Under the pieces are notes generated by a model that ran no database searches, was not told the DNA's origin, and was given only the letters and a program-made list of their open reading frames with translations. A stretch of 39,611 nt of DNA. It comes from a virus. The stretch is taken from IMG/VR virus record IMGVR_UViG_3300032675_000057, positions 1 through 39,611 of that record. One strand, 5' to 3'. Positions 4,460-27,795 of this stretch are shown piece by piece; positions within the stretch are counted from its first letter, which is position 1, and each line of letters begins with the position of its first letter. A program made the position numbers and the translations under genes.

Positions 4460-5370
4460 ATCATTTTCCTATCGTGGGTCGTGCGCTCTACGGCACCACC
4501 GCGTTTGTAATTTCTATTTGGGTCGAATTTGGGTTCCATATCACCGGGCATTCCCGAACTAACCGGGCCGGGATCGCTTCCGACAAAATTCAAAAATGGA
4601 AATTTATTGCGTTCTTCCAGCATCGTTTTTGGCAGAACACCTTTGGAAGTTTCAACTTCATTACCGGTTATGTAGTCAATCGGATGCGTAGTGAGCTTGT
4701 CCCACGTACCCGGCTCTTCGCCTTTGGCAAAACTCTGATTATAGAGTTTGTGAGTGTCCACAAAATCCGAATTCCCCCATTTGTATTCCGGAACCACTCT
4801 AAGCATGGAAGACTTAGTGTCTTCAAGAACCCTGCTTTCCTTATCAGCAAACGAATCTTTGTTGCTGTACTTGTTTGGGTTTTGTGCTACAAAATAATTG
4901 TGGTAGAAAGCGTTTATGTTCGATTGATATTGAGGAGCAGAATTAGAACCCATGATGTCGTGGATTCTATTAATGTACTCGTTGGTTATCGCGTTGTGCC
5001 TAGCTTCGTGGGCAAAAGTCTGCGGACTCGCCCCGCTTCCAATGCCTAAAATGTTCGTACTAGGCTTTTCAAATTTTTCGTATTGGGCTTCGGAGATCGC
5101 ATAATCCCTAGGCACAAGTTTTAATTTTTGTTCAAATGTAGGTGGAACTAATTTTTTATTAGCGTCGGGGGCGTTTTGAAAATTGACCCCTAACGTACTG
5201 TAGTAGACATCAGGGTCGCCTACGTTCACCATCCGAGAAGTGTCTACAAGATTTTGTTCTGAAGGCATCAGCTTGGAACGTATCTTTGCCGCTGCTTCCG
5301 GATCCTTGTTAACGTCCACCCTTCCCATCCAAGGGTAATATTGCATCAATGTGCGTATGCCTGATTCCAT
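4456..5370 (-). CDS. Putative zinc metallopeptidase (HExxH) between terminase and portal
   Basis: A 304-residue protein with a clear HExxH motif, FAHEARHNAI, at residues 119-128 (H121, E122, H125). This motif binds zinc and supplies the catalytic Glu in many metallopeptidases; the third metal ligand cannot be placed with confidence. The rest is hydrophilic and lacks a signal peptide or membrane segment. The C-terminus holds NYKRGGAVER, a Gly-Gly motif also seen in the virion proteins at the other end of the window. Position in the head operon suggests maturation of a virion protein or a virion-borne enzyme, but this is inference. The ATG at 5370 forms TGATG with the terminase stop and has GAGGG about 8 nt upstream; an upstream ATG at 5406 has no such site. 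Confidence 0.65.
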   Translation of the reverse strand: MESGIRTLMQYYPWMGRVDVNKDPEAAAKIRSKLMPSEQNLVDTSRMVNVGDPDVYYSTLGVNFQNAPDANKKLVPPTFEQKLKLVPRDYAISEAQYEKFEKPSTNILGIGSGASPQTFAHEARHNAITNEYINRIHDIMGSNSAPQYQSNINAFYHNYFVAQNPNKYSNKDSFADKESRVLEDTKSSMLRVVPEYKWGNSDFVDTHKLYNQSFAKGEEPGTWDKLTTHPIDYITGNEVETSKGVLPKTMLEERNKFPFLNFVGSDPGPVSSGMPGDMEPKFDPNRNYKRGGAVERTTHDRKMI

Positions 5371-6890
5371 CAGTAATACCCTCTGTGCCTTTTCGACTTG
5401 AACCACTGCACTGGTTCTGGCTGGTCTGTTGGTAGTTTGATAAACCCACCCTGACGGAACCGCAGCAGTGCAAGCGACGTAGAGTCAACTAAGTCGTCGT
5501 TCTTGCCAGCCGGGAAATCATTACATTCTTCAATGACTTCTCTAGCCCACCGTCTGTCAGGTGCCCAGACAATACCTGATCTAAACAAGTCCGTCACCGC
5601 GTTTACACGCGAAATCTTGTCTTGGCCCTTGCCCGGTGTGAACTCCATAATCGGAACGCCCATACGACGCATCTCTTGGTAGAGCGCCGAGCCGCTGGAT
5701 TTCTTTTCAACGATGAAGCTATCTGGACTCCATTCTTGGTACTGCTCCAGCACCATCTCCTTCAGCTCCGGGTACTCCATCCGTTCCTTGATGGCGTTCA
5801 GCAAGATAATGTTCTGGTTCTTGGTCTCTTCGTTGAAGAACACCCCCCACGTAGTCAGGGCGTTGTAGTCGGCACGGGTGTTCTTTTCTTGTGCGGAGTC
5901 GAGTGCCATGATGATGAATTCGCAGTGTGGCGGATCGTCTTGCTCCCAGACGTTCCACCACTCTCTCTTTATAAGAGCGCCTTCCTCTGCCGTTGGCTCC
6001 TGCATGTACTGGGCTTGCCAGTATCGCGGATCCATATCGGCTTTCTTGGAGAGCAACTCTTCCAAAGGCCAGAACTCAGGCCAAAGGGGCTGACCATTTA
6101 AAATGGCAGGGAACTCAATAACTTCCCACTCCGCAGAGTCGTCGTTACGGGTCATGTGGTCGATGATCTGACCGGTCAGGTCGAGCTTTGACCAGCGCGT
6201 CATCACAACGATGATCGCGCCCCCCGGCATCAGTCGTTGGATTGGGCCTGACTGGAACCATTCCCACGCGGGTTCAAACACGTGTGGTACACCTTGTTTG
6301 GCTTCCTGCTCGGAGTGTGGGTCATCAATAATGAACAGATCGGCACCACGACCAGCCAAAGCACCACCCACACCAATAGCAAAATACTCTCCGTTAAAGT
6401 TGGTACCCCACCGAGAGGCGCTCTTGCTATCTGCTTGTAGCTCGACCTGCGGAAAGATGTCATGGTATAGGTCGCTCCCTACAAGGTTACGGACACGTCG
6501 GCCGAAATTTACTGCAAGATCAGCAGTATGCGAGGCCATGATCACTTTCTTCTGAGGATACTTGCCAAGGAACCACGCCGGGGCAAGGTAGGAGATCATC
6601 TCGCTCTTGCCATGACGCGGTGCGATGTTAACGATGACCCGTTTTTTAGCCCCAGAGGCAATTTCTTCAAAAATTCTGGCTAATTTCCGATGGTGTGGCC
6701 CCACCATATAGCCCGGATAAACGTGCTTAATGAAGCTCAAAAAGTCGTCTTTTGCCTTCGTTTTGGTCGTTTCTTTGTAGTATTTGACCAATAAATCGGC
6801 AGTTTTACGCTTCTGGGCGTCTGGCATAGACGGAAGCGCAGCACGGAGCTTGGCAAGGTTCTCAGGCGTCAGTTTGAGGGCTGTACTCAA
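5370..6890 (-). CDS. terL: Terminase large subunit (packaging ATPase and nuclease)
   Basis: This 506-residue protein is the DNA packaging motor. The N-terminal ATPase has Walker A APRHGKSE (about 90-97) and Walker B LFIIDDPH (about 185-192). The C-terminal RNase H-fold nuclease shows the expected acidic residues: D331 in MALDSAQ, E395 in IVEKK and D465/D466 in KNDDLVDS. It works with the small subunit upstream and docks on the portal. A TTG start at 6890 is chosen because GGAGG lies 9 nt upstream. Another TTG at 6929 is possible and no ATG is near. The start overlaps the small-subunit gene by 29 bp. Confidence 0.95.
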   Translation of the reverse strand: MSTALKLTPENLAKLRAALPSMPDAQKRKTADLLVKYYKETTKTKAKDDFLSFIKHVYPGYMVGPHHRKLARIFEEIASGAKKRVIVNIAPRHGKSEMISYLAPAWFLGKYPQKKVIMASHTADLAVNFGRRVRNLVGSDLYHDIFPQVELQADSKSASRWGTNFNGEYFAIGVGGALAGRGADLFIIDDPHSEQEAKQGVPHVFEPAWEWFQSGPIQRLMPGGAIIVVMTRWSKLDLTGQIIDHMTRNDDSAEWEVIEFPAILNGQPLWPEFWPLEELLSKKADMDPRYWQAQYMQEPTAEEGALIKREWWNVWEQDDPPHCEFIIMALDSAQEKNTRADYNALTTWGVFFNEETKNQNIILLNAIKERMEYPELKEMVLEQYQEWSPDSFIVEKKSSGSALYQEMRRMGVPIMEFTPGKGQDKISRVNAVTDLFRSGIVWAPDRRWAREVIEECNDFPAGKNDDLVDSTSLALLRFRQGGFIKLPTDQPEPVQWFKSKRHRGYY

Positions 6891-7422
6891 CCTGCGGCTC
6901 CTCCATAACGGTGTATTCGATGTTATCAAGCACCGTGAGCAGTTCGCGTTCTACTTCTTCAATCGGCAGCACTTTAAGAGTGGTTTCACTGCGCTTTTTG
7001 AAGGCATCTACACCATCTACTTCGCCCAAACTACGGAGTGCAGTAAGTCTGTCCTTGGTCGTTTGGGCATGTTCTACCTCATAGACCAGCTTGTTGATGA
7101 CGTACATCTTCAATTCAGCAAGGTCATCGACCAACATGCAGTTTGACTGCTGAACCATCCCAGCCAGATAGGCCATCACTTCGTTCGGGTAACGGGCGTA
7201 CTCAGGCCGTAGCTTGGGGTTGGCAGTCATTTCTTTAGCCAACTCAATTGCTTGGGCTTGATGTTCGGCAGAGGGAGAGATGGGAGTGCCGGTTAGATCG
7301 GCCAACAATTTCATCGTGTTGACCCGCATCTCAAGTTCTTCATGCGGAGTCAGGTCGGGCATGGCTTCCGTGGCTTTTTTGGGCAACGGAATGTCTTCAT
7401 CTATGTCAGGCATGTACGACAT
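6862..7422 (-). CDS. Probable terminase small subunit
   Basis: A 186-residue, mostly helical acidic protein directly upstream of terL and overlapping it. A helix-rich core includes MVQQSNCMLVDDLAEL and KDRLTALRSLGEVDGVDAF. Small terminase subunits recognise the packaging site on phage DNA and feed it to the large subunit. No helix-turn-helix can be drawn with certainty, so the assignment rests on position and general similarity to proteins found before terL in related phages. It is the first gene of the packaging operon. The start ATG has AAGG about 6 nt upstream; a second ATG three codons later is also possible. Confidence 0.7.
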   Translation of the reverse strand: MSYMPDIDEDIPLPKKATEAMPDLTPHEELEMRVNTMKLLADLTGTPISPSAEHQAQAIELAKEMTANPKLRPEYARYPNEVMAYLAGMVQQSNCMLVDDLAELKMYVINKLVYEVEHAQTTKDRLTALRSLGEVDGVDAFKKRSETTLKVLPIEEVERELLTVLDNIEYTVMEEPQVEYSPQTDA

Positions 7423-8972: not shown

Positions 8973-9207
8973 AGGAAATGTGCTACGCGATTGTTATGTT
9001 CGTGCAGGAAGCGCTCGGCAAGCTCGCGCCATAAAGATGCACTCACAAGACCAAGAACAAAAGGAGTTCGCAAAGCCTCACGACTGCATCCGGAGGCGAG
9101 AGGGCTTCGCCCCCTCGCGCTCCCCCGCGTCTTCGCTGCGCTCAGCCGCGTTCCCTCGCTCGCAAAGCCTCGCTCGGGAACTGGCTTCGGGCGGGTGCGA
9201 GCATCGT
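8973..9207. other. GC-rich hairpin-prone stretch without a convincing gene
   Basis: An open frame spans this stretch on the plus strand, but its translation is an Arg/Ser/Ala-rich mixture that follows from palindromic DNA, and no ribosome binding site or homology is apparent. The DNA contains a hairpin of 10 pairs with one mismatch (9096-9105 with 9109-9118, TTC loop) and pieces such as TTCGCTGCGCTC that recur near 7780. I see no promoter and no RNA gene of a known class. Confidence 0.45.
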
Positions 9208-9227
9208 AGCGTTACGCGCGTAACGCT
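9208..9227. promoter_or_regulatory. CGTTAC/GTAACG dyad, site 1
   Basis: AGCGTTACGCGCGTAACGCT is a perfect 20-bp palindrome. Its core CGTTAC-GCGC-GTAACG recurs at three more places up to 10028 with a 5-bp spacer. The recurrence points to binding sites for a dimeric DNA-binding protein or to repeated RNA stem-loops. Confidence 0.65.
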
Positions 9228-9276
9228 GAATTGTTTGCGTGGAGTCCCTGTGGGCACCGTGCATCGCGCAACATCG

Positions 9277-9454
9277 TTTAAACTGGCCGATTCTGAAGAA
9301 CCCACGTCATATCGCGCGAGTTTAAATGGTGTTGGGTGTGGGCATCGTTACGCCCCGTAACGTCATTTAAACTGACAGATTCTGATAACCCCTCATCATA
9401 TTTTGTTAGTTTAAACCATGTTGGGTATCGGCACGAAAACGGCTCTAAACAAGT
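9277..9454. repeat. 89-bp tandem repeat with inner TTTAAACT/AGTTTAAA inverted repeats
   Basis: Units at 9277-9365 and 9366-9454 are aligned by TTTAAACTG at their start, GATTCTGA about 12 nt later, TTTAAA at 9321 and 9410, and TGTTGGGT before the end, all with an exact 89-bp offset. In each unit TTTAAACT faces AGTTTAAA some 34-36 nt away. The copies have diverged at many positions, so the duplication is not recent. The inner arms and the flanking CGTTAC dyads suggest repeated protein-binding units of a control region or origin. Confidence 0.75.
9346..9362. promoter_or_regulatory. CGTTAC/GTAACG dyad, site 2
   Basis: CGTTAC (9346-9351) and GTAACG (9357-9362) are separated by GCCCC. It lies at the boundary of the two 89-bp units and matches the other three dyads in both arms. 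Confidence 0.6.
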
Positions 9455-9473
9455 GCGTTACGACGTGTAACGC
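9455..9473. promoter_or_regulatory. CGTTAC/GTAACG dyad, site 3
   Basis: GCGTTAC (9455-9461) and GTAACGC (9467-9473) are separated by GACGT. It starts immediately after the second 89-bp unit and ends 4 nt before the TGTTCCA array. Confidence 0.6.
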
Positions 9474-9477
9474 GGTT

Positions 9478-9906
9478 TTGTTCCAATTTGTTCCAGCCAA
9501 GTTCCATTTGTTCCAAGAAATTTTTGCGCTTGGAACAGGATTTTCTTAATAGAATCATATGGTTAAGTCATTTGTTCCATTGTTCCAAGTGGAATTACAA
9601 GAATACCCCCCCTACGGAGTAAAAACGGGGAGAGGGAAAAGGGGACGGCAGGGGTCAGGTAAGCAAAAGTGGTCTGGGGAAACCGACCCTCTATTTTCTA
9701 AAAAAGTGGAACATTGGAACAAATCCGTATAACTCTCCTATATATATATATATTATTTAAAAAATAATAATAATAACTCCTTAAAAATCAATGCTTCCCT
9801 CCCAAATTGGACGTATTTTTAACGTCCACATTTAGTGACGTACCCGTGTTCCAAAACCCATTTTTTTCTTGGAACAAGCTGGAACACGTGGAACAAAACT
9901 GGAACT
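9478..9906. repeat. Mirror-symmetric TGTTCCA array, candidate replication origin
   Basis: Fourteen sites of TGTTCCA or its complement TGGAACA occur here; two are AGTTCCA variants. Left half: four forward sites starting at 9479, 9489, 9500 and 9509, one reverse at 9531, two forward at 9573 and 9581. Right half: two reverse at 9707 and 9715, one forward at 9847, four reverse at 9870, 9880, 9889 and 9900. The order and orientation on the right are the exact mirror of the left. In the outer clusters spacing is 9-11 bp, about one helical turn. The AGTTCCA variants are third from the outside on the left and outermost on the right. Phased repeats around an A/T-rich run are typical of iteron origins; this role is inferred, and no initiator is proven. 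Confidence 0.75.
9739..9776. other. 38-nt pure A/T run, candidate DNA unwinding element
   Basis: Every base from 9739 to 9776 is A or T, starting with alternating TA. It lies inside the right half of the mirror-symmetric array, between the paired reverse sites at 9707-9721 and the forward site at 9847, where an initiator could open the strands. No gene or clear promoter was found within it. Confidence 0.5.
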
Positions 9907-9923
9907 GACCCCTAATCAAGTGC

Positions 9924-9954
9924 TGGATTCATATGTAAAGATATGCTATAATAT
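9924..9954 (+). promoter_or_regulatory. Early promoter P1 (extended -10)
   Basis: TATAAT at 9947-9952 is preceded by TGC, giving an extended -10 element. With a 17-nt spacer the -35 position is TGGATT at 9924-9929, a weak match. The block is repeated at 10917-10947 with only two differences over 31 bp. P1 would drive the four small genes from 10046; a CGTTAC dyad lies about 50 nt downstream of the predicted start. Confidence 0.8.
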
Positions 9955-10009
9955 CTCTTAGATGAGGGAAGATGTAGGTTGAATGGTTTATATGGTTCGA
10001 CACAATTTA

Positions 10010-10673: not shown

Positions 10674-10916
10674 ATGGGCTATTACAAATCGCAAATCGTT
10701 GAACAGATTGATTTTCTAGACACGTACACAGTTGTCCGAAGATCAAAAGAAACTATTCTTATTGATCGTATCTATCAGGCTGTGACGAGCGTCACAGAAG
10801 ACTATGACGATCTGATGTGCACACTCAGCCACGTGACTGACTTGTGCGAGGACTATTTCCGCGCCGAGGACGATCCCGATCCGTATGCAGATAGCGAATG
10901 GACTGGCGCTCGTTGA
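10674..10916 (+). CDS. Small acidic early protein
   Basis: An 80-residue acidic protein of unknown function ending in a run of Asp, Glu and Pro (about residues 60-74). The ATG at 10674 is chosen because GGAGG ends 6 nt upstream, at 10663-10667; an ATG 36 nt earlier is poorer. It is the last gene of the P1 set, and promoter P2 starts just after its stop. Small acidic early phage proteins often target host enzymes, but this is speculation here. Confidence 0.72.
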   Translation: MGYYKSQIVEQIDFLDTYTVVRRSKETILIDRIYQAVTSVTEDYDDLMCTLSHVTDLCEDYFRAEDDPDPYADSEWTGAR

Positions 10917-10947
10917 TGGATACATATGTAAAGGTATGCTATAATAT
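10917..10947 (+). promoter_or_regulatory. Early promoter P2, near-copy of P1
   Basis: TATAAT at 10940-10945 is preceded by TGC, and the 31-bp block matches P1 except at two positions. It starts right after the preceding stop codon, and the next gene starts at 10983 with GGAGG at 10970-10974. No CGTTAC dyad lies near it, so P2 may be regulated differently from P1. It would drive the MoxR/VWA module and probably the genes beyond. Confidence 0.82.
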
Positions 10948-10982
10948 ACTCTCAAGTGGGAAATCAACTGGAGGAAACAACA

Positions 10983-11885
10983 ATGATTGATCTGAATAAA
11001 CCCGAAGTCATCACGTCCTTGGCAACGTCAGGGATACTTGTGCACATCGAAGTCAAAAGCTGGTCTGCCACGAAACAAGACGAAGAGATCTCCGATGAGG
11101 TCAACATTGCCAAGAAGGCAGACCGCAACGCGGGTCGGTTCGTCAAGAATCTTTTGGCTGACGTGAAGGAGCATAAGGATTGTTTGCGTGACCGGGCGGC
11201 TTGGTACAACTGGATCCAGCGCGAGACATTCCCGTGGGCTGGTGCGTGGCGGTATCTGCCGAACCCTCGCATACCGCAGTTCATGCGTGACTACGCGTCA
11301 CGCAAACAACACACGGAGAAGCTGGTGGACGACCTGATCGCGGCGCTGCCCACAGCCATATCTAACATGGCGTTTACGTTGGGTGACGCGTTCAAGCGCG
11401 AGGACTATCCGACGGACGAAGAGGTGCGGAGCAAGTATGGCGTGACGTTGTTCACGAACGAAGTACCGGTGGGTGACTTCCGTAACAAGCTGGCTAATGA
11501 TCTTGCAGATGATCTTCAGAAGCACTACACACAGCAAGCTCAACGGTGGGCGCAGGACATCGCCAACAAACAAGTAGAACAGCTTGTCGATCTCATGCAG
11601 CGCATATCCAAGTGTTGCGAAGTCGAGACGGTGATCGACCCAGAGAAGGGCGTGAAGGTGGTGCGGCGCAAGCTGTATGACTCGACTATCGAACGTGCGT
11701 TGGAGTTGTGCGATACGTTCAAGGACTTCAACATCATGAACGACGGCAAGCTGGAGGCTGCGCGGGCATCACTACAGAGTGTGTTGCGTGGCGTAAACAT
11801 TGAAGCGTTGAAGCAGTCAGACTCAATGCGAACCCAAGTCAAGACAGAAGTCGATGACATCCTGTCTAAGTTTGGAATGGTTTGA
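10983..11885 (+). CDS. Partner protein of the MoxR/VWA module
   Basis: A 300-residue soluble, largely helical protein with no recognised catalytic motif. It is Trp-rich early on (SWSATKQDEE, then AWYNWIQRETFPWAGAWRYLP) and coiled-coil-like later. It is the first gene of the P2 transcript and precedes a MoxR-type ATPase and a VWA protein. In composition and position it resembles DUF3150-type proteins that travel with such ATPases, but this is a weak match made by eye. A substrate or adaptor role for the ATPase is inferred. GGAGG lies 8 nt before the ATG. Confidence 0.65.
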   Translation: MIDLNKPEVITSLATSGILVHIEVKSWSATKQDEEISDEVNIAKKADRNAGRFVKNLLADVKEHKDCLRDRAAWYNWIQRETFPWAGAWRYLPNPRIPQFMRDYASRKQHTEKLVDDLIAALPTAISNMAFTLGDAFKREDYPTDEEVRSKYGVTLFTNEVPVGDFRNKLANDLADDLQKHYTQQAQRWAQDIANKQVEQLVDLMQRISKCCEVETVIDPEKGVKVVRRKLYDSTIERALELCDTFKDFNIMNDGKLEAARASLQSVLRGVNIEALKQSDSMRTQVKTEVDDILSKFGMV

Positions 11886-18070: not shown

Positions 18071-18246
18071 AGATTCCAGAGATAGTATTGTTTGCATACC
18101 AGACCAAAGGCGAGGCGCTTGAGGTTGCTAATCATCAAGAGGATGTTGAGGTAGCGACTGTCTACATCAAGAAAGGAATCAAGAAAGGATTCAGCCTCGC
18201 TGAAGTCCCTGTGTGTTATCTGATGCTGCCGAAGGAGAAGCAATGA
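18067..18246 (+). CDS. 59-residue protein ahead of DNA polymerase, GTG start
   Basis: A GTG overlapping the previous stop (GTGA), with GGGAG 5 nt upstream, starts a 59-residue protein with mixed beta and helix character (PEIVLFAYQTKGEALEVA). Its stop overlaps the polymerase start (ATGA). The tight coupling at both ends supports it as real. Function unknown. Confidence 0.65.
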   Translation: MKIPEIVLFAYQTKGEALEVANHQEDVEVATVYIKKGIKKGFSLAEVPVCYLMLPKEKQ

Positions 18247-20120
18247 GCATCATCACCATAGACTTTGAAACTTACTACGACAAGGATTATTCCCTGTCGA
18301 AGATGACAACCGAGGAGTACATCAACGATCCAAGGTTTGAAGTCATTGGCGTAGGTATCAAAGAAGATGATGAACCCTCTAGATGGTTTAGTGGGGAAGA
18401 TATATCGGTTGCTTTAAACAGTATTGACTGGGAAGACACCATACTGATTTGTCACAACATGATGTTCGACGGCGCGATCCTTGCGTGGCGCTACGGGATT
18501 TTCCCAGCTATGTATGTGGATACATTATGTATGGCACGAGCCATTCATGGTGTTGACGCGGGTGGTTCGCTCAAGGTATTGGCTGAACGATACAACATAG
18601 GAGCGAAAGGCAATGAAGTCATCGAAGCTATGGGCAAACGTAGAAGTGATTTTAGTCCTGCTGATCTTGTTCGTTATGGCGAGTACTGCTGTAACGATGT
18701 TGAGCTTACCTACAAGTTGTTTTACAAACTTCAGCCGTTCCCTAACAACGAATTGAAACTGATTGACCTGACCATCCGTATGTATACGGATCCAGTCTTT
18801 GAACTGAACGATAGTCTGTTGATAGCAAGGCTTGAAGAAGTTCGTACTGACAAAGAGAATCTTCTACGTGGTCTGATGGCAGGTTTGAATGTCTCTACTG
18901 AAAAAGAAGTCAGCGAGTTGTTGTCCAGCAATAACAAGTTCGCAAACATCCTAAACAGTTTAGGTGTATCACCGCCGCTCAAGATAAGCCCTGCGACGGG
19001 TAAGGAGACCTACGCGTTCTCCAAGACAGACGAAGGGTTCCTTGCATTGAAGGAACACCCAGATGAATTTGTACAGGAGTTGTGCAGAGTTAGGCTTGGC
19101 ACAAAGTCTACAATCGAAGAATCACGTATAGAACGGTTCCTTGATGTTGGAGAGCGTAACCGTGGGAAACTACCTATCCCGTTAAAATACTACGGCGCAC
19201 ATACTGGCCGATGGTCTGGCACCGAAGGTATAAATCTTCAGAACCTGCCTAGCCGTGACAAGACCAAGAAGACTCTTAAGAACGCGCTAGTGGCTCCACC
19301 GGGGCATTTGATAATCAACTGCGACTCAAGCCAGATCGAAGCACGCGTGCTTGCGTGGCTGGCTGGCGAGACAGATCTAGTCAAAGCGTTCCGAGAAAAG
19401 AGAGATGTCTATTCAGAGTTTGCTACCAAGGTATACAAACGCAAGATCACCAAAGCCAACGAGTTGGAACGGTTCGTTGGCAAGACTTGCATACTTGGTT
19501 TGGGTTACGGCACTGGAGCCAAAAAGTTAGAACTAACTCTCAAGACAAGTGCAATGCGTGTTGAGTTGGAAGAAGGCAAGGCTGAAGAGATAGTAAAAAC
19601 TTATAGAAAAACCAACACTAAGATCCCTGACCTTTGGTACGAAGGGGATAAATTGCTGGCTAACTTATGCGGCTGGCCGACAGACGGACGTGAAAGCTAT
19701 GAGTTCGGGAACTCATCAGTCATTGTGGATAAAACAGGAATACGTTTACCTAATGACCTATACATACGCTACCCCGGTTTGAATACAGAAACTAAAACCG
19801 CCGAAGAAAACCGCGAAGCAAAGTCCTATAAAGTTTATCAATCCCGCAAGGGTAAGGTAAGTATCTGGGGTGGTTCAGTCGTTGAGAACGTAGTGCAAGC
19901 GTTGGCTAGAATTATCATAGGCGAACAGATGCTCAAGCTGAAAGAACGCTATCGTGTAGCCCTGACGGTGCACGATGCTGCGGTGCTTGTTGTTAGCGAA
20001 AAAGAAATCGAAGAAGCCCTTGCATTTGTAACGGAAACTATGTCTACTGCACCTAAGTGGTGTAGTGATTTGCCTGTGGCTTGTGAGGCCAAATACGGCT
20101 TTAGTTATGGAGATTGCTAG
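18243..20120 (+). CDS. DNA polymerase, family A, with 3'-5' exonuclease
   Basis: A 625-residue replicative polymerase of the T7/Pol I type. The exonuclease domain shows all four metal-binding acids: D7 and E9 in IDFET, D76 in HNMMFD, and D152 in YCCND, with Y148 making it a DEDDy type, so proofreading is likely. The polymerase domain has motif A around D361 (CDSSQIEARVLAWLAGE), motif B (KTCILGLGYGTGAKK) and motif C around D578. Motif C reads VHDA where VHDE is usual; the catalytic Asp is kept. The ATG at 18243 overlaps the previous stop; an ATG 30 nt earlier is inside that gene. Confidence 0.95.
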   Translation: MSIITIDFETYYDKDYSLSKMTTEEYINDPRFEVIGVGIKEDDEPSRWFSGEDISVALNSIDWEDTILICHNMMFDGAILAWRYGIFPAMYVDTLCMARAIHGVDAGGSLKVLAERYNIGAKGNEVIEAMGKRRSDFSPADLVRYGEYCCNDVELTYKLFYKLQPFPNNELKLIDLTIRMYTDPVFELNDSLLIARLEEVRTDKENLLRGLMAGLNVSTEKEVSELLSSNNKFANILNSLGVSPPLKISPATGKETYAFSKTDEGFLALKEHPDEFVQELCRVRLGTKSTIEESRIERFLDVGERNRGKLPIPLKYYGAHTGRWSGTEGINLQNLPSRDKTKKTLKNALVAPPGHLIINCDSSQIEARVLAWLAGETDLVKAFREKRDVYSEFATKVYKRKITKANELERFVGKTCILGLGYGTGAKKLELTLKTSAMRVELEEGKAEEIVKTYRKTNTKIPDLWYEGDKLLANLCGWPTDGRESYEFGNSSVIVDKTGIRLPNDLYIRYPGLNTETKTAEENREAKSYKVYQSRKGKVSIWGGSVVENVVQALARIIIGEQMLKLKERYRVALTVHDAAVLVVSEKEIEEALAFVTETMSTAPKWCSDLPVACEAKYGFSYGDC

Positions 20121-20479
20121 TGTCTAAAATAAAAACTGATGAGTTGGATAAGAAGCTCGACTCCATGAACAAAGAAGAGACTAGGAAGTTTATCATCACC
20201 ATGCTCACCGAGATGCTGGACATGGCACAACAGTTCGCAGCATCAGCAGCAGAGATGAGGATGGCTGTGCATGAGTCCATGCTTCTGATGTCCAAGGCTC
20301 CGCTCAAAGATTGCGAAGGTAAAGACGAGTGCGAGCCGTGTTACTGGCGTGGTTCGGTTGTAGGTCTGTACGATCAGATCGCTGCTAAGCCATTAGAAGT
20401 CGAAGACAGCATGACGCCAGAAGAAGCGATGAAGAAACTGAATACGATTCTCCGCAGTGACAAGATGTACGACGCATGA
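20120..20479 (+). CDS. Unrecognised protein between polymerase and nuclease
   Basis: A 119-residue acidic helical protein. It starts with GTG overlapping the polymerase stop (TAGTG), with GGAG 7 nt upstream. The middle is Met- and Ala-rich (MLDMAQQFAASAAEMRMAV), followed by a small Cys cluster (CEGKDECEPCYW). The Cys residues could bind metal, but the spacing is not a standard finger. Its place between polymerase and nuclease suggests a replication accessory protein; this is inference. Confidence 0.7.
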   Translation: MSKIKTDELDKKLDSMNKEETRKFIITMLTEMLDMAQQFAASAAEMRMAVHESMLLMSKAPLKDCEGKDECEPCYWRGSVVGLYDQIAAKPLEVEDSMTPEEAMKKLNTILRSDKMYDA

Positions 20480-21723: not shown

Positions 21724-23307
21724 ATGGAAATTGTAGACGATATCGCAGTGCGTTTGACACTGCCCTCGGAGTATGCCGATAGAGTTCTCAGATGGGTTGG
21801 CAGGAGCGCGTTAGCGCAGGATTTGGGTTCAACCAAGTCTATCGTGGTCTATTGGGATCAGCGCGAAACAGAATACCTGACCAGAGTTGCAGATGAACTT
21901 CGACCCAACATGGCGTTGGATATTCCTTCACCATTGTTGAGAGATTACAAGTGGCCCGGTGTCCACAAGCCTTTTGATCATCAACGAGACACAGCGTCAT
22001 TCTTGAGTATTCGTAGTAGAGCATTCTGTTTCAATGAAGCAGGAACCGGTAAGACTTCCGCCGCCATATGGGCTGCGGATTACCTAATGAATTTAGGATT
22101 GGTGAGACGGGTACTCGTAGTGTGCCCGTTGTCCATCATGTTCACGGCATGGCGCGATGAAGTGTTCAAAGCCGCGATGCACCGTTCGTGTTTCGTTGCT
22201 TACGGGTCGAACGAAAAGCGTAGAAGAATCATTGCTCACCCATACGAGTTCACCATTATTAATTATGATGGAGTCAACATCGTCAGTGATGCGATAGCCG
22301 ACGCCAAGTTCGATTTGATCATTGTCGATGAGGCTAATGCTTACAAGACTGTGAGTACCAAACGCTGGCGTACCTTGTCCAAGTTGATAACGCCATCTAC
22401 AAGATTGTGGATGATGACAGGTACACCAGCATCGCAATCGCCAATGGACGCGTTCGGCCTTGCACGTCTTGTATCACCCTTGCGCGTACCAAAGTATTCC
22501 ACAGCATGGCGCGACACCGTGATGTATCCGAAGACACGTTTCAAGTGGCTTCCAAAATCTGATTCTAAGGAAAAGGTGTTTCATGTCTTGCAGCCAGCGA
22601 TTCGGTTTAACAAGAACGACTGCCTCGACCTGCCACCTGTAACTTATCAGACTAGAATTGTTCCCTTGACAGTGCAAGCGCAAACATACTATCGCAAGCT
22701 GAAGCAAGAGATGTTAATACAAGCTGTTGGCGAACAAGTCAGCGCAGTCAATGCCGCTGCCAAACTAAACAAGCTGTTGCAGATATCTGGCGGTGCAACA
22801 TATACAGATGGTGGCAACGTCATTGAATTCGACATTGGGCCTCGCTTCAAAGCACTGCGAGAAGTGCTTGACGAAACGTCCAACAAAGTAATAGTGTTCG
22901 TTCCCTATCGGCACACCATCACTGTCGTTGCGGAGTACCTTGATAACGAGGGCTTCACAAACGACATCATCATGGGTGACGTTACCCCAAAAGAACGCGC
23001 AAACATCATCACCAAATTCCAGACACAATCGGATCCTCATGTGTTAGTGATTCAACCGCAGTCAGCTTCTCATGGTGTCACACTCACCGCTGCGGATACG
23101 GTTGTGTTCTGGTCTCCAGTCATGTCGGTCGAAACATACTTACAATGTATCGGTCGTATTGATCGAGTCGGACAGAAGAACAAGATGACTGTTGTTCATT
23201 TGCAAGGCTCGGAAGTAGAGCGTCGTGTATACGACATGCTCAATAGTAAAGTAGATAGTCATAACAAGTTAATTGACCTGTACAAGCAGGAGTTGGAGGC
23301 AGAGTGA
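21724..23307 (+). CDS. SNF2-type superfamily 2 helicase
   Basis: A 527-residue DNA-dependent ATPase. Motif I is EAGTGKT (105-111), motif II VDEAN (201-205) and motif III TGTP (232-235). The C-terminal RecA-like domain ends in a motif VI of the form QCIGRIDRVGQ, which is typical of SNF2-like enzymes such as phage remodelling helicases. These translocate on double-stranded DNA and can strip proteins or assist recombination and replication. Motif II is DEAN rather than DEAH. It follows the hairpin gap and its stop overlaps the next start. Confidence 0.92.
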   Translation: MEIVDDIAVRLTLPSEYADRVLRWVGRSALAQDLGSTKSIVVYWDQRETEYLTRVADELRPNMALDIPSPLLRDYKWPGVHKPFDHQRDTASFLSIRSRAFCFNEAGTGKTSAAIWAADYLMNLGLVRRVLVVCPLSIMFTAWRDEVFKAAMHRSCFVAYGSNEKRRRIIAHPYEFTIINYDGVNIVSDAIADAKFDLIIVDEANAYKTVSTKRWRTLSKLITPSTRLWMMTGTPASQSPMDAFGLARLVSPLRVPKYSTAWRDTVMYPKTRFKWLPKSDSKEKVFHVLQPAIRFNKNDCLDLPPVTYQTRIVPLTVQAQTYYRKLKQEMLIQAVGEQVSAVNAAAKLNKLLQISGGATYTDGGNVIEFDIGPRFKALREVLDETSNKVIVFVPYRHTITVVAEYLDNEGFTNDIIMGDVTPKERANIITKFQTQSDPHVLVIQPQSASHGVTLTAADTVVFWSPVMSVETYLQCIGRIDRVGQKNKMTVVHLQGSEVERRVYDMLNSKVDSHNKLIDLYKQELEAE

Positions 23308-24571: not shown

Positions 24572-24883
24572 ATGCCACGGAACTACAGCGATAAATTTCT
24601 ATACGAACTGTCGCAAGCGAACTCCGATAGACTCGGGGTTCGTCTTGGTCGCCTGTGCGTAGAGATGAATATCCCTGCTTCGTATGTTGCAGTTGCACTC
24701 AAGACTTCGCGTATGACTATCTACAGTTGGTTTCGCGGTAGAGGCGTAAGCGAAAATAAACGAGCCTTGGTTGAGACATTCATCAGATTGGTTGAGGACG
24801 ATGCCAAGGTTGGCATGTTACCCGCCAAGAACATGGTCGATGCCAAGAACTACATACAAGAGATGTTGGGGGTATCCATTTGA
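24572..24883 (+). CDS. Small HTH DNA-binding protein
   Basis: A 103-residue protein with a predicted helix-turn-helix: ASYVAVALKTSRMTIYSWFR (about residues 36-55) matches a Cro/XRE-like layout, with the recognition helix in TSRMTIYSWF. It is likely a transcription regulator and a candidate for binding the repeats upstream of the early genes. It is directly followed by an intrinsic terminator, so it is the last gene of this part of the operon. Its ribosome binding site is weak. Confidence 0.72.
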   Translation: MPRNYSDKFLYELSQANSDRLGVRLGRLCVEMNIPASYVAVALKTSRMTIYSWFRGRGVSENKRALVETFIRLVEDDAKVGMLPAKNMVDAKNYIQEMLGVSI

Positions 24884-24910
24884 TTTGATGGTTGGTAGTT
24901 CTTCACCTCT

Positions 24911-24940
24911 CGCCGGGGGTAGCTCCCCCGGCGTTTTTTT
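24911..24940 (+). terminator. Rho-independent terminator before the primase gene
   Basis: CGCCGGGGG (24911-24919) pairs perfectly with CCCCCGGCG (24925-24933) around TAGCT and is followed by seven T residues (24934-24940). This is a textbook intrinsic terminator on the plus strand. It stands 28 nt after the HTH gene and ends 12 nt before the primase start, so the primase needs read-through, antitermination or another promoter. Confidence 0.93.
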
Positions 24941-24951
24941 CTACGGCGAAT

Positions 24952-27795
24952 ATGAAAAAACAATTTTACGAACACCTACTTCCATCGCAAGGTTTCTACT
25001 GTGTAGCAAAAATCGACAAGGACGGTAGCTTAGGCAGTCGGTTTGCAGAGAACCTTGATGATCTAATTAAAATAACGGACGAGTACAAAACAGCGGGGGC
25101 CAATGTTTACGTAACACCAAACTCATTCAAAGGATACAGTCGGCAAGCGAAGAGCGCGTTATGGTCGCGTTCGTTGTTCGTTGATCTGGACGTAGGGGCT
25201 GAGAAGGAATACAGCAGTCAAGAAGAAGCGTTGGCTGCGCTTGATGACTTCATCGCCAACACAGGTATGCCCGAACCGGTTCGGGTTAACTCAGGAACTG
25301 GCATCCAAGCCTTCTGGATACTCACGCAAGATATCCCGATTGAAAAATGGAAACCGCTGGCTGAATCATTTAAACAATTTTGCGTGGACAAGGGGTTGCT
25401 CATAGACCCCTCAGTGACAGCCGATGCTTCCCGGCTCATGCGTTGCCCAGACACTTTTAACTATAAAACAAACCCGCCCAGCCCGACCAGCGTACTGACC
25501 AGCTCGGTGGTCGTACATGAACTTGTTTATATAGAGTCAATTATTTTTGGGCGGGTAACTTCTAACACCGGGAATAATTCACCATCTATAGATGTTCTAG
25601 CCCAGATTCCGAAGGGATTGGATGAAGATACTGCCAGCATTGGTAACAAGGGCAAATTCGACGGCACCGAGAATTATTTTCAAGACGTGCTGGAGAAGTC
25701 CCTAGAAGACAACGGCTGCGCCCAGATCAAGAGATTGGTCGCTGCCCCGGCCAAGCAGAAGTACCCAGAATGGTTTTGGCTGCTGTCCATTGCCGCTCAT
25801 TGTGTGGATGGCGAAGAGGCTGTACACGTCGTTTCGCAAGGACACCCCGGTTACGATTACGACAAGACGGTTCTTAAAGCCCAAGAAACTTTAAAGAATG
25901 ATGCACCGCAGCGATGTGACACCATAGAGGGCGTTTACCCAAAAGGGTGTGATGGCTGTCACTTCAAAGGCAAGATCGGATCCCCTGTGGCGTTGGGCAA
26001 ACGAGTCAAGCCACTACCTCCCGAGAAAATGCCTCCCGGCCTTCCTAAACTTCCCGAAGAATTGTTTCCGTATTCATGGGGTGCTGATAACGCCTTGTGG
26101 TACAAGCCGCCGATTGAGTATGACAAGAAGGGCAAGGAGGTAGATCCCCCCGCCGTCATGATCTGCCGACATATCTTTTATCCAACAACGCGCATCTTCA
26201 GCAAGCGCGATGGCGCAGTTCTTACAGTAAAAGTCATGCTCCCCAAAGATCCAGATCGGGAGTTTGATTTGCCGGTGAAGTACATATCCATTGGTAATGA
26301 CAAGTTTAGAGAGTTACTTGCTAGTTACGATGTGATGCCTACACACCCAAACACAGCACTGATCCAAAGGATGGTTGACTACATGAGCAAATGGAATGAT
26401 TACTTTATTAACATGAAAACCGCCGAGCAGATGCAGACCCAGATGGGTTGGACTGATCACATGGATTCTTTTGTCATTGGATTCAATGAGATTACCCGGA
26501 GCGGAGAGGTGCGTAAGACCGCTGCTTCTCCCGGTGTACGCAAACTTGCCAAGATCATGCCAGCTACCGGTAGCTTCCAAGTGTGGAAGAACTCAGCAAG
26601 GCAGTTAAACCAACCGTCGCTTGAGCCTATAGCCTTCGCCATGCTGTGCGCGTTCGGTTCCCCCCTGATGTCATTGACCAACACTCCCGGCGTGTCGGTG
26701 TGCTACTCAGGCCCATCGGGTGCTGGCAAGTCTGCGGCAATGTTGGCGGGGTTGAGTGTCTATGGAGACCCCCGTGGCTTGTGTTTGCAGGAGAACAACG
26801 CGACCGACAACGTACTTGTGGGGCGTATGCTCAACTTAAAAAACATTATGTTTGGTCTTGACGAGGTGCACTCCCGGCTTCCAGAACAGCTTTCCAAGTT
26901 TATCTTCCAAGTATCTACCGGCAAGCCCAAGGCGAGGATGCAGTCGTCCGAGAATGAAGAACGCGACATCGAAGCCTTTGCATCGCTTATCTCGTTGTGG
27001 AACTCCAACGCTGACGTGCTGGATATTCTACGCCAGTACAAGAAGAACCCCGAGGGCGAAATCGCCCGTTTCGTTCAGTTCATGGTGCAGACACCCAAAC
27101 TGTTTGAACGGCACCCTGAGCTTGGCCCTATGATCATTGAGCCTTTCAACCATAACTACGGTCATGCAGGAATCGAATTCATCAAAGCCGTCTACGCTAT
27201 GGGGTTCGATGAAATCAGCATCCGTTTGGCTTATTGGGGCAGTCGGTTTGATAAGTCGTTTGGAACGCACACCAAGTATAGGTTCTACCGTAGCTTAGTT
27301 AGTGCATCGTTTACAGGCGGGGAGATTGCCAACAAGGCCGACATCATTAGACTTGATCTTGAACGAGTTTATGAGGAAGTCATGAAAGCCATGATTGATT
27401 TCCGTGACCGCACTAACAGCAACGATGCTAATTACCCTGACGAGTTCAATACCTTTATGAACGACAACCTGCACTCGTTCTTGAAGATGGACGGCGACAC
27501 CATTATAAACTTTCCAACCCACCATGCTTTTATTGGGCGCATTGAGTTGGACAGCCAGTTGGTCTGGGTGCACAAACAAGCCATCAAGAACTACATCGGC
27601 GGCAAACAAAAACTCAACATTAGCCAGTTTGAACACGTGATGCAGGAACGAGGAATACTTATCAAGTCCGAGAAAAAGAGGATTGGTGCTGGCTGGGGCG
27701 AAGCATCGGTCGTAGGGCCAGTACACTGTTGGGTCTTCAAGCTAGACCCATCTGATATTGAAATGCTTATCGTCAAAGACAATCCAAAACATTAA
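24952..27795 (+). CDS. Primase-helicase (AEP primase plus DUF927-like ATPase)
   Basis: A 947-residue protein. The N-terminal primase domain has the archaeo-eukaryotic primase signature: D78-L-D80 in FVDLDVG, NSGTGIQAFWIL near 113-124, and DASRLMRCPDTFNYK near 158-172. In the second motif a Gln (Q119) stands where His is usual. A Cys cluster near CDTIEGVYPKGCDGCHFKG may bind zinc. The C-terminal ATPase has Walker A GPSGAGKS with K593 and Walker B GLDEVH with D637/E638, as in DUF927 helicases. It would prime and unwind at the origin. The ATG at 24952 has no clear ribosome binding site; upstream codons in frame lie inside the terminator. Confidence 0.88.
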   Translation: MKKQFYEHLLPSQGFYCVAKIDKDGSLGSRFAENLDDLIKITDEYKTAGANVYVTPNSFKGYSRQAKSALWSRSLFVDLDVGAEKEYSSQEEALAALDDFIANTGMPEPVRVNSGTGIQAFWILTQDIPIEKWKPLAESFKQFCVDKGLLIDPSVTADASRLMRCPDTFNYKTNPPSPTSVLTSSVVVHELVYIESIIFGRVTSNTGNNSPSIDVLAQIPKGLDEDTASIGNKGKFDGTENYFQDVLEKSLEDNGCAQIKRLVAAPAKQKYPEWFWLLSIAAHCVDGEEAVHVVSQGHPGYDYDKTVLKAQETLKNDAPQRCDTIEGVYPKGCDGCHFKGKIGSPVALGKRVKPLPPEKMPPGLPKLPEELFPYSWGADNALWYKPPIEYDKKGKEVDPPAVMICRHIFYPTTRIFSKRDGAVLTVKVMLPKDPDREFDLPVKYISIGNDKFRELLASYDVMPTHPNTALIQRMVDYMSKWNDYFINMKTAEQMQTQMGWTDHMDSFVIGFNEITRSGEVRKTAASPGVRKLAKIMPATGSFQVWKNSARQLNQPSLEPIAFAMLCAFGSPLMSLTNTPGVSVCYSGPSGAGKSAAMLAGLSVYGDPRGLCLQENNATDNVLVGRMLNLKNIMFGLDEVHSRLPEQLSKFIFQVSTGKPKARMQSSENEERDIEAFASLISLWNSNADVLDILRQYKKNPEGEIARFVQFMVQTPKLFERHPELGPMIIEPFNHNYGHAGIEFIKAVYAMGFDEISIRLAYWGSRFDKSFGTHTKYRFYRSLVSASFTGGEIANKADIIRLDLERVYEEVMKAMIDFRDRTNSNDANYPDEFNTFMNDNLHSFLKMDGDTIINFPTHHAFIGRIELDSQLVWVHKQAIKNYIGGKQKLNISQFEHVMQERGILIKSEKKRIGAGWGEASVVGPVHCWVFKLDPSDIEMLIVKDNPKH

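Follow-up and report, generated by a model that had tools for sequence, protein, structure and literature searches.

A mirrored iteron site between divergent operons is the probable replication origin of a phage

Introduction

Two opposed arrays of seven short sites each, with an off-center A/T run, lie between the divergent operons of the virus analyzed here; the whole record (39,611 bp; no end repeats were found) is herein called the window. What is such a site for? We propose that positions 9479-9906 are the phage's replication origin, a reading to which we assign a probability of roughly 0.8 because of the homology of its putative initiator, the plan of the sites, the conserved place of the cluster, and the clusters found beside initiators in other phages. 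A preliminary description drawn from the letters had suggested a bidirectional iteron origin or a large nucleoprotein control site; with the clustering of the sites added, these lines of evidence make the iteron origin the best-supported reading.

Architecture of the Iteron Site

An unbiased scan of all 6-mers identified GTTCCA as the densest in the genome, with 14 copies in 426 bp and a score of 46.6; the maximum densest-word score in 40 Markov shuffles was 18.2. The preliminary description counted fourteen TGTTCCA sites; fourteen GTTCCA sites are present, of which 12 read TGTTCCA and two read AGTTCCA. Over the whole window TGTTCCA occurs 17 times against 6.7 expected, and 100 shuffles gave at most 14. 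The word presumably differs from the DnaA box. The site is made up as follows:

9479..9515, plus strand: left outer array, four iterons at 9479, 9489, 9500 (AGTTCCA), and 9509
9500-9506, plus strand, and 9900-9906, minus strand: the AGTTCCA variants
9508..9537, no strand: left dyad, TTGTTCCAAGAAA...TTGGAACA, with the iteron at 9531-9537 on the minus strand
9573..9587, plus strand: left inner pair, two iterons with 8 bp spacing
9588..9706, no strand: core between the inner pairs, 50% GC, with five plus-strand G-runs of 3-4
9707..9721, minus strand: right inner pair, two iterons with 8 bp spacing
9739..9776, no strand: 38-nt A/T-only run in the long right arm, a putative DNA-unwinding element
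9847..9877, no strand: right dyad, mirroring 9508-9537, with iterons at 9847 (plus) and 9870 (minus)
9870..9906, minus strand: right outer array, iterons at 9870, 9880, 9889, and 9900 (AGTTCCA)

The order of the 14 sites is an exact mirror, >>>><>> versus <<><<<<, and the spacings first described for the outer arrays (9-11 bp) and inner pairs (8 bp) were recovered. Successive sites are spaced 10, 11, 9, 21, 43, 8, then 125, then 8, 133, 22, 10, 9, and 11 bp; order and fine spacing are therefore mirrored, whereas one gap, from dyad to inner pair, on which the earlier account was silent, is 43 bp long in the left half but 133 bp in the right. The overall plan is a mirror with one arm lengthened, each half having four sites in its outer array, then a dyad partner 21-22 bp inward, and lastly an inner pair. 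Other elements were rightly noted at the outset: both outer arrays hold TTGTTCCAAGAAA facing TTGGAACA, and the 38-nt A/T-only run lies inside the cluster, the next longest such run genome-wide being 14 nt. This run is off-center, within the 133-bp right gap, beyond the right inner pair but short of the right outer array. The two inner pairs form an 18-nt inverted repeat (94% complementary).

Because 14 randomly oriented sites would fall into mirror order with a chance of 1/128, the mirror alone is unconvincing, and it is the clustering that carries the significance. Single-strand DNA folding of the site gave a z of -5.64, which is not counted as evidence since inverted repeats predict such a value. 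Rfam, searched at gathering thresholds, gave no match within the window. Separately, GGGGAGAGGGAAAAGGGGACGGCAGGGG at 9627-9654 in the core could form a G-quadruplex.

Genomic Surroundings and the Proposed Initiator

The site is intergenic. Genes to its left lie on the minus strand and include those for the portal, the terminase large subunit (TerL), and a 186-aa protein; genes to its right lie on the plus strand and include those for an AAA-like protein, a DUF2201 protein, a family A polymerase, a PD-(D/E)XK nuclease, a SNF2 helicase, and a primase-helicase. The landmarks used below are the following:

5370..6929, minus strand: TerL, a conserved landmark left of the cluster
6862..7422, minus strand: 186-aa protein, terminase small subunit (TerS) by position only, with no significant family match
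9211..9224, no strand: operator-like palindrome GTTAC-N-GTAAC (putative role)
18213..20120, plus strand: family A DNA polymerase (PolA), in a replication module shared with the primase-helicase
21724..23307, plus strand: SNF2-type helicase, in the same module
24892..27795, plus strand: proposed initiator, 967 aa, PrimPol plus SaPIBov1-Rep/Cch-type helicase

Further copies of the palindrome start at 9347, 9457, and 10012, and the four copies flank the iteron site; in the relative G002, different palindromes (CCTGAC...GTCAGG) adjoin its iterons. A 34-nt promoter-like repeat with TATAAT occurs ahead of the early genes at 9921-9954 and 10914-10947 (91% identical), and left of the site there is a 78-nt direct repeat with TTTAAAC motifs (9267-9344 and 9356-9433; 74% identity). 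GC skew had been named as a check on where the origin lies. Its minimum does fall near the site in this phage and in relatives, but transcription diverges there too, so the minimum does not discriminate; in two co-directional contigs the minima miss the clusters. Since it is confounded with gene direction, GC skew was not used.

The 967-aa protein matches DUF927 (Pfam PF06048, E 1.7e-20), and a profile built from 53 relatives aligns with SaPIBov1 Rep (8tch, E 2e-25) and with SCCmec Cch (5dgk, E 7e-25) along the helicase and into the C-terminal domain. Its AlphaFold model (mean pLDDT 86.9; pTM 0.58, at which domain placement is uncertain) comprises a PrimPol domain at residues 18-219 and a helicase with a C-terminal winged helix at about 375-961. 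The best fold match is to Cch (Z 31.7, residues 375-961), alongside matches to SaPIBov1 Rep (Z 27.5, residues 386-956) and, for residues 18-219, a cyanophage PrimPol domain (Z 19.0). By its profile matches and predicted fold, the primase-helicase is a member of the SaPIBov1 Rep/Cch helicase family (DUF927). SaPI Rep recognizes iteron origins through its C-terminal domain, and a DNA-binding C-terminus is described for it (PMC7581432); a catalog of PrimPols includes fusions to DUF927 or VirE ATPases and suggests origin recognition by the winged helix (PMC5862659). The 103-aa protein (24572-24883), called an HTH protein earlier and put forward with the primase-helicase as a candidate binder, has no significant family match (best HTH_22, E 0.05; NCBIfam, E 0.037), and we consider the primase-helicase the likelier one.

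One observation counts against the origin reading: the helicase gene is 15 kb from the site, whereas SaPI origins directly adjoin rep. Around the helicase genes of 80 loci (up to 10 kb on each side) no iteron-like 7-mer cluster was detected (best score 19.0), which fits a distant origin, as this is what one would expect of it.

Does the primase-helicase itself read the iterons? In a variant of the origin reading that we regard as unlikely, another protein, such as the 103-aa protein or a 309-aa one (10956-11885), reads them and loads the helicase. Covariation within the window's own family is compatible with this variant, as it does not single out the helicase: for the iteron word against the helicase (19 pairs) the best window reached a partial r of 0.35, with 93 of 500 permutations as high, and among 13 proteins in up to 19 genomes none stands out; an earlier, query-anchored version was no clearer. 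The lowest permutation counts were those of TerL (36/500) and PolA (40/500), from which we conclude that the comparison has little power. The variant would also accommodate contigs G013 and G014, which carry clusters although neither a DUF927-type nor a VapE-type helicase was detected in their reading frames. It sits poorly with the self-loading nature of the initiators SaPIBov1 Rep and Cch, and with the presence here of a counterpart to the SaPI Rep C-terminus, which is described as binding DNA (PMC7581432). Moreover, tblastn found no 103-aa protein in G024 and no 309-aa protein in G002, G006, G010, or G055, all of them partial contigs with clusters.

Conservation of Place, Word, and Layout among Relatives

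TerL relatives (the best 80 loci of a longer list) were oriented by the TerS-position gene, which was found preceding TerL in 77 of the 80; the 28 with at least 2,400 bp upstream of that gene were testable. An iteron cluster is at the same place in 20 of these 28, with the word TGTTCC in 17 (one of which, L003, is the same phage as the window), TGTACG in two, and TGTGCC in one. The remaining eight have no convincing iteron cluster: two show an operator-like GTGTCA group, two another word, and four nothing above threshold. Three loci labeled with GTGTCA were not taken to carry iterons, as they resemble operator palindromes. One of the eight, G003 (locus L046), encodes both helicase and terminase, yet no cluster could be assigned to it.

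A second set started from 80 helicase relatives, of which 34 contigs were searched for terminase and nine carry TerL; the cluster is at the same place in all eight with enough upstream sequence, in the forms TGTTCTA, GGTTCCA, TGTTCCA, ATTCCA or TTCCAA, and TGTTCC. Several contigs of the first set had been found by a scan for the pattern TGTTCCATTGTTCCA (among the matches listed), so their clusters are not an independent count; of its 12 records with both helicase and TerL, nine have a cluster, with G009 being the same phage, G003 having no assigned cluster, and G001 lacking upstream DNA. G009, L003, and L088 carry the same site at 99.2-100% identity to the window and, as the same phage, are not independent evidence. 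Iteron words vary among relatives (TGTTCTA, GGTTCCA, ATTCCA, TTGTACGC, and TTGTGCCGG); judged from the sequences compared, the word changes while the place of the cluster stays constant.

Eleven pieces (L463-L473) of seven contigs without TerL show no convincing iteron cluster. L467 has ten dense CAAGGC words at 13-375 (score 28.9) replacing GTTCCA, which may be another iteron or something else; G003 has a weaker CAAGGC/AAGGCC group instead of GTTCCA at about 9615-9999, and L466 and L470 have GC-rich words, mostly in the same direction. DNA-level searches against named phages with window positions 9200-10000, the L099 cluster, and the L132 cluster gave no match, and it took protein searches to reach such phages.

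Layout was compared in 19 genomes with an assigned word; G003 and G005, for which no iteron was assignable, were left out, and the weak cluster of G021 (6 sites, score 16.0) was kept. Inner pairs of 7-9 bp are present on both sides in 13 genomes and on one side in four, and a gap of 41-45 bp is present in 11 of the 19. A script located a core of 100-161 bp in 17 genomes (G004 and G011, without a core, were left out), and the AT-richest 40 bp falls outside it in 16. The same site order in relatives, proposed earlier as a check, was found only in part: the exact mirror is not conserved, but the inward polarity is, with 148 of 189 sites in the 17 genomes pointing toward a core that was chosen to maximize that count.

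Within the 11.9 kb of cluster sequence a second conserved element, AAGTNNTTGATT, was counted 18 times, spread over 12 of the 19 genomes, as against five times in 578 kb outside, with a maximum of two in 200 Markov shuffles of the clusters; it was first spotted in some of those clusters, so the enrichment is partly built in. The window's cluster has no exact copy and holds degenerate forms only, one candidate being:

9780..9796, minus strand: AAGCATTGATTTTTAAG, possibly a degenerate copy of AAGTNNTTGATT, whose consensus is from relatives

A priming site is one possibility for the role of AAGTNNTTGATT.

The nearness of terminase genes raises an alternative to an origin, a pac or cos packaging site at which the small terminase would bind both arrays and the large terminase cut between them; we consider this improbable. 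In the window's group the cluster does lie upstream of the TerS-position gene, by about 0.9-4.1 kb, and in another group, of the L097/L099 kind, it adjoins a gene that resembles TerS by eye. In some known pac sites, arrays flank the cut on both sides, which counts for packaging; an AT-rich run is, to our knowledge, not expected at a pac site, which counts against it. TGTTCC accompanies TerS-position proteins that share as little as 16-19% identity, and across 14 genomes TerS did not covary with the word (raw r 0.09; the best window was matched or exceeded in 120 of 500 permutations), although nothing else clearly covaried either. Packaging would also leave aside the clusters that adjoin replication genes: TGTTCC lies directly 3' of the helicase gene in VapE-type loci, the cluster of phage phiRg507T2_3 is 3' of its helicase, and the second cluster of G013 adjoins a primase gene. 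G013 and G014 each contain two GTTCCA clusters, about 22 kb apart:

G013: 18968-19354 and about 40834-41078
G014: about 19943-20205 and from 41315

One G013 cluster is near a terminase match, and some 100 bp separate the other from a gene that carries an archaeo-eukaryotic primase domain and in which no fused helicase domain was found. G013 also encodes an adenylosuccinate-synthetase-like protein, a family A polymerase, and a UvrD helicase.

Clusters in VapE-type Loci and Named Phages

At least 80 VapE-type loci (PF05272) were collected from bacterial genomes, presumably as prophages; two were too short and 78 were scored, of which 69 could be labeled with a word (TTCC 53, TTGC 8, TTTC 5, TGCC 2, and TTAC 1) and nine could not. 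As in the window, the cluster is at the replication module and the iteron word, most often TGTTCC, is the same in most labeled loci; unlike in the window, the cluster is directly 3' of the helicase gene. AAGTNNTTGATT was found in none of the 78 loci, and hhalign detected no full-length homology between the VapE-type helicases and the window's helicase family (probability 0.3).

Thinning the 69 labeled loci to 42 non-redundant ones gave a partial r of 0.50 between one stretch of the helicase and the word after removal of whole-protein distance. None of 2000 label permutations was as high at the peak, a figure that is not a strict probability since labels were permuted among tips without a tree. 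The peak covers residues 651-700 of 781 in L374, at the junction of the ATPase and C-terminal domains, and starts inside the end of the VapE ATPase profile (454-672 in L141); windows deeper in the C-terminal domain have partial r values of -0.21 to 0.21. Among single columns, residues 653, 665, 726, and 773 rank highest. By analogy with VapE, this suggests that it is the helicase with which the iteron clusters belong. TGTTCC is found in company with at least three different replication modules (DUF927 helicase, VapE helicase, and stand-alone PrimPol), so origins and initiators may have been swapped or may have converged.

Pseudomonas phage Rollin encodes a helicase with 21.7% identity to the window's over 98% of its length, and eight of its nine TTGCATA words fall within 420 bp, arranged three against three and accompanied by an AT-rich stretch (score 26.2); the cluster, examined later than those in which AAGTNNTTGATT was first spotted, contains AAGTGGTTGATTTT. 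The helicase gp42 of Ruminococcus phage phiRg507T2_3 is more distant (22% identity over 39% of the query), and GTAACA words are arranged >>><<><< around AT-rich DNA (score 20.8) in a cluster that begins about 190 bp 3' of the helicase gene, past one small gene. MT835606, nearly identical in sequence, does not count as an independent case. In the unannotated MT837305, GTTAC words are similarly arranged 3' of its match (score 14.4). Set against the chance maximum of 18.2, which comes from the longer window, the score of phiRg507T2_3 is modest and that of MT837305 falls below. The parts examined of the records of three TerL relatives, DSL-LC04, HTVC023P, and MinM2, contain no mirrored cluster with these words, and the replication genes annotated there are of other kinds. 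Taken together, the sequences suggest that tailed phages, including Rollin and phiRg507T2_3, use a satellite-like origin plan with helicases of the same kind.

That the arrays are instead an operator for divergent early and late promoters, bound by a repressor or activator that loops the DNA between, is very improbable: the site does lie in a divergent intergenic region with the promoter-like repeat at 9921-9954, but the four GTTAC-N-GTAAC palindromes are already operator-like and G002 likewise has palindromes of its own, the VapE-type and phiRg507T2_3 clusters lie between co-directional genes beside the helicase, and many short sites with an AT-rich run are origin-like. Packaging and operator roles explain less than an origin does and are less likely.

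Discussion

If 9479-9906 is the origin, initiation might proceed as follows. The winged helix of the primase-helicase would bind the TGTTCCA words, whose 8-11 bp spacing would bring neighboring monomers to roughly the same face of the DNA, and two oppositely directed helicase hexamers would be seated by the opposed arrays. Strain at the inner pairs would then open the 38-nt A/T run, allowing the helicases to load; the PrimPol domain would prime and the family A polymerase extend, so that forks leave both ways. More tentatively, the site may belong to a class of origin that is widespread among phages. Here iteron arrays in tiers (outer array, dyad, and inner pair per side) would oppose each other and hold two PrimPol-helicase hexamers head to head, so that bacterial viruses would have their own counterpart of the MCM double hexamer; the melting site would be shifted into one of the arms, next to AAGTNNTTGATT. 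The open-licence literature, outside which most subscription papers fall, yielded no report of a satellite-like origin plan in tailed phages.

Several known systems resemble the proposed origin in part. Satellite phage P4 replicates with its alpha protein, which, like the window's proposed initiator, is a primase-helicase fusion that binds iterons; unlike in the window, its ori is a site distinct from crr. Where the window has a PrimPol, P4 has a primase of the TOPRIM type, and the pRN1 replication protein combines an archaeo-eukaryotic primase, a helicase, and a C-terminal winged helix, as here (PMC4234260). The pRN1 origin differs, being a 100-nt stem-loop without iterons that adjoins the gene. 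SCCmec Cch (5dgk) is the best fold match of the primase-helicase (Z 31.7), and Cch2 binds direct repeats adjoining its gene; in the excerpts of that work, the Cch2 site has three AAGTG iterons, and no mirrored two-array layout is described there (PMC7581432).

The closest comparison is with the PICI/SaPI origin of SaPIBov1 Rep, which, in the excerpts of its description, likewise has two sets of short iterons flanking an AT-rich stretch, and whose initiator is a homologous helicase with a C-terminal winged helix. The window differs in being a phage with its own TerL and portal rather than a helper-dependent satellite, in the fusion of a PrimPol to the helicase, in its 14 iterons arranged in outer arrays, dyads, and inner pairs with the AT run off-center in one arm, and in the position of the site (9.5-9.9 kb) relative to the initiator gene (24.9-27.8 kb), the site not being immediately 3' of it. 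Given that the site is remote from its initiator gene, and that the element is no satellite, we describe it as probably working like a PICI origin and not as a member of that group. Should this be correct, whether satellites took their origins from phages becomes testable, and the phage would offer a small system for asking how two opposed, self-loading helicases are placed on DNA by an origin whose geometry is apparent from its sequence.
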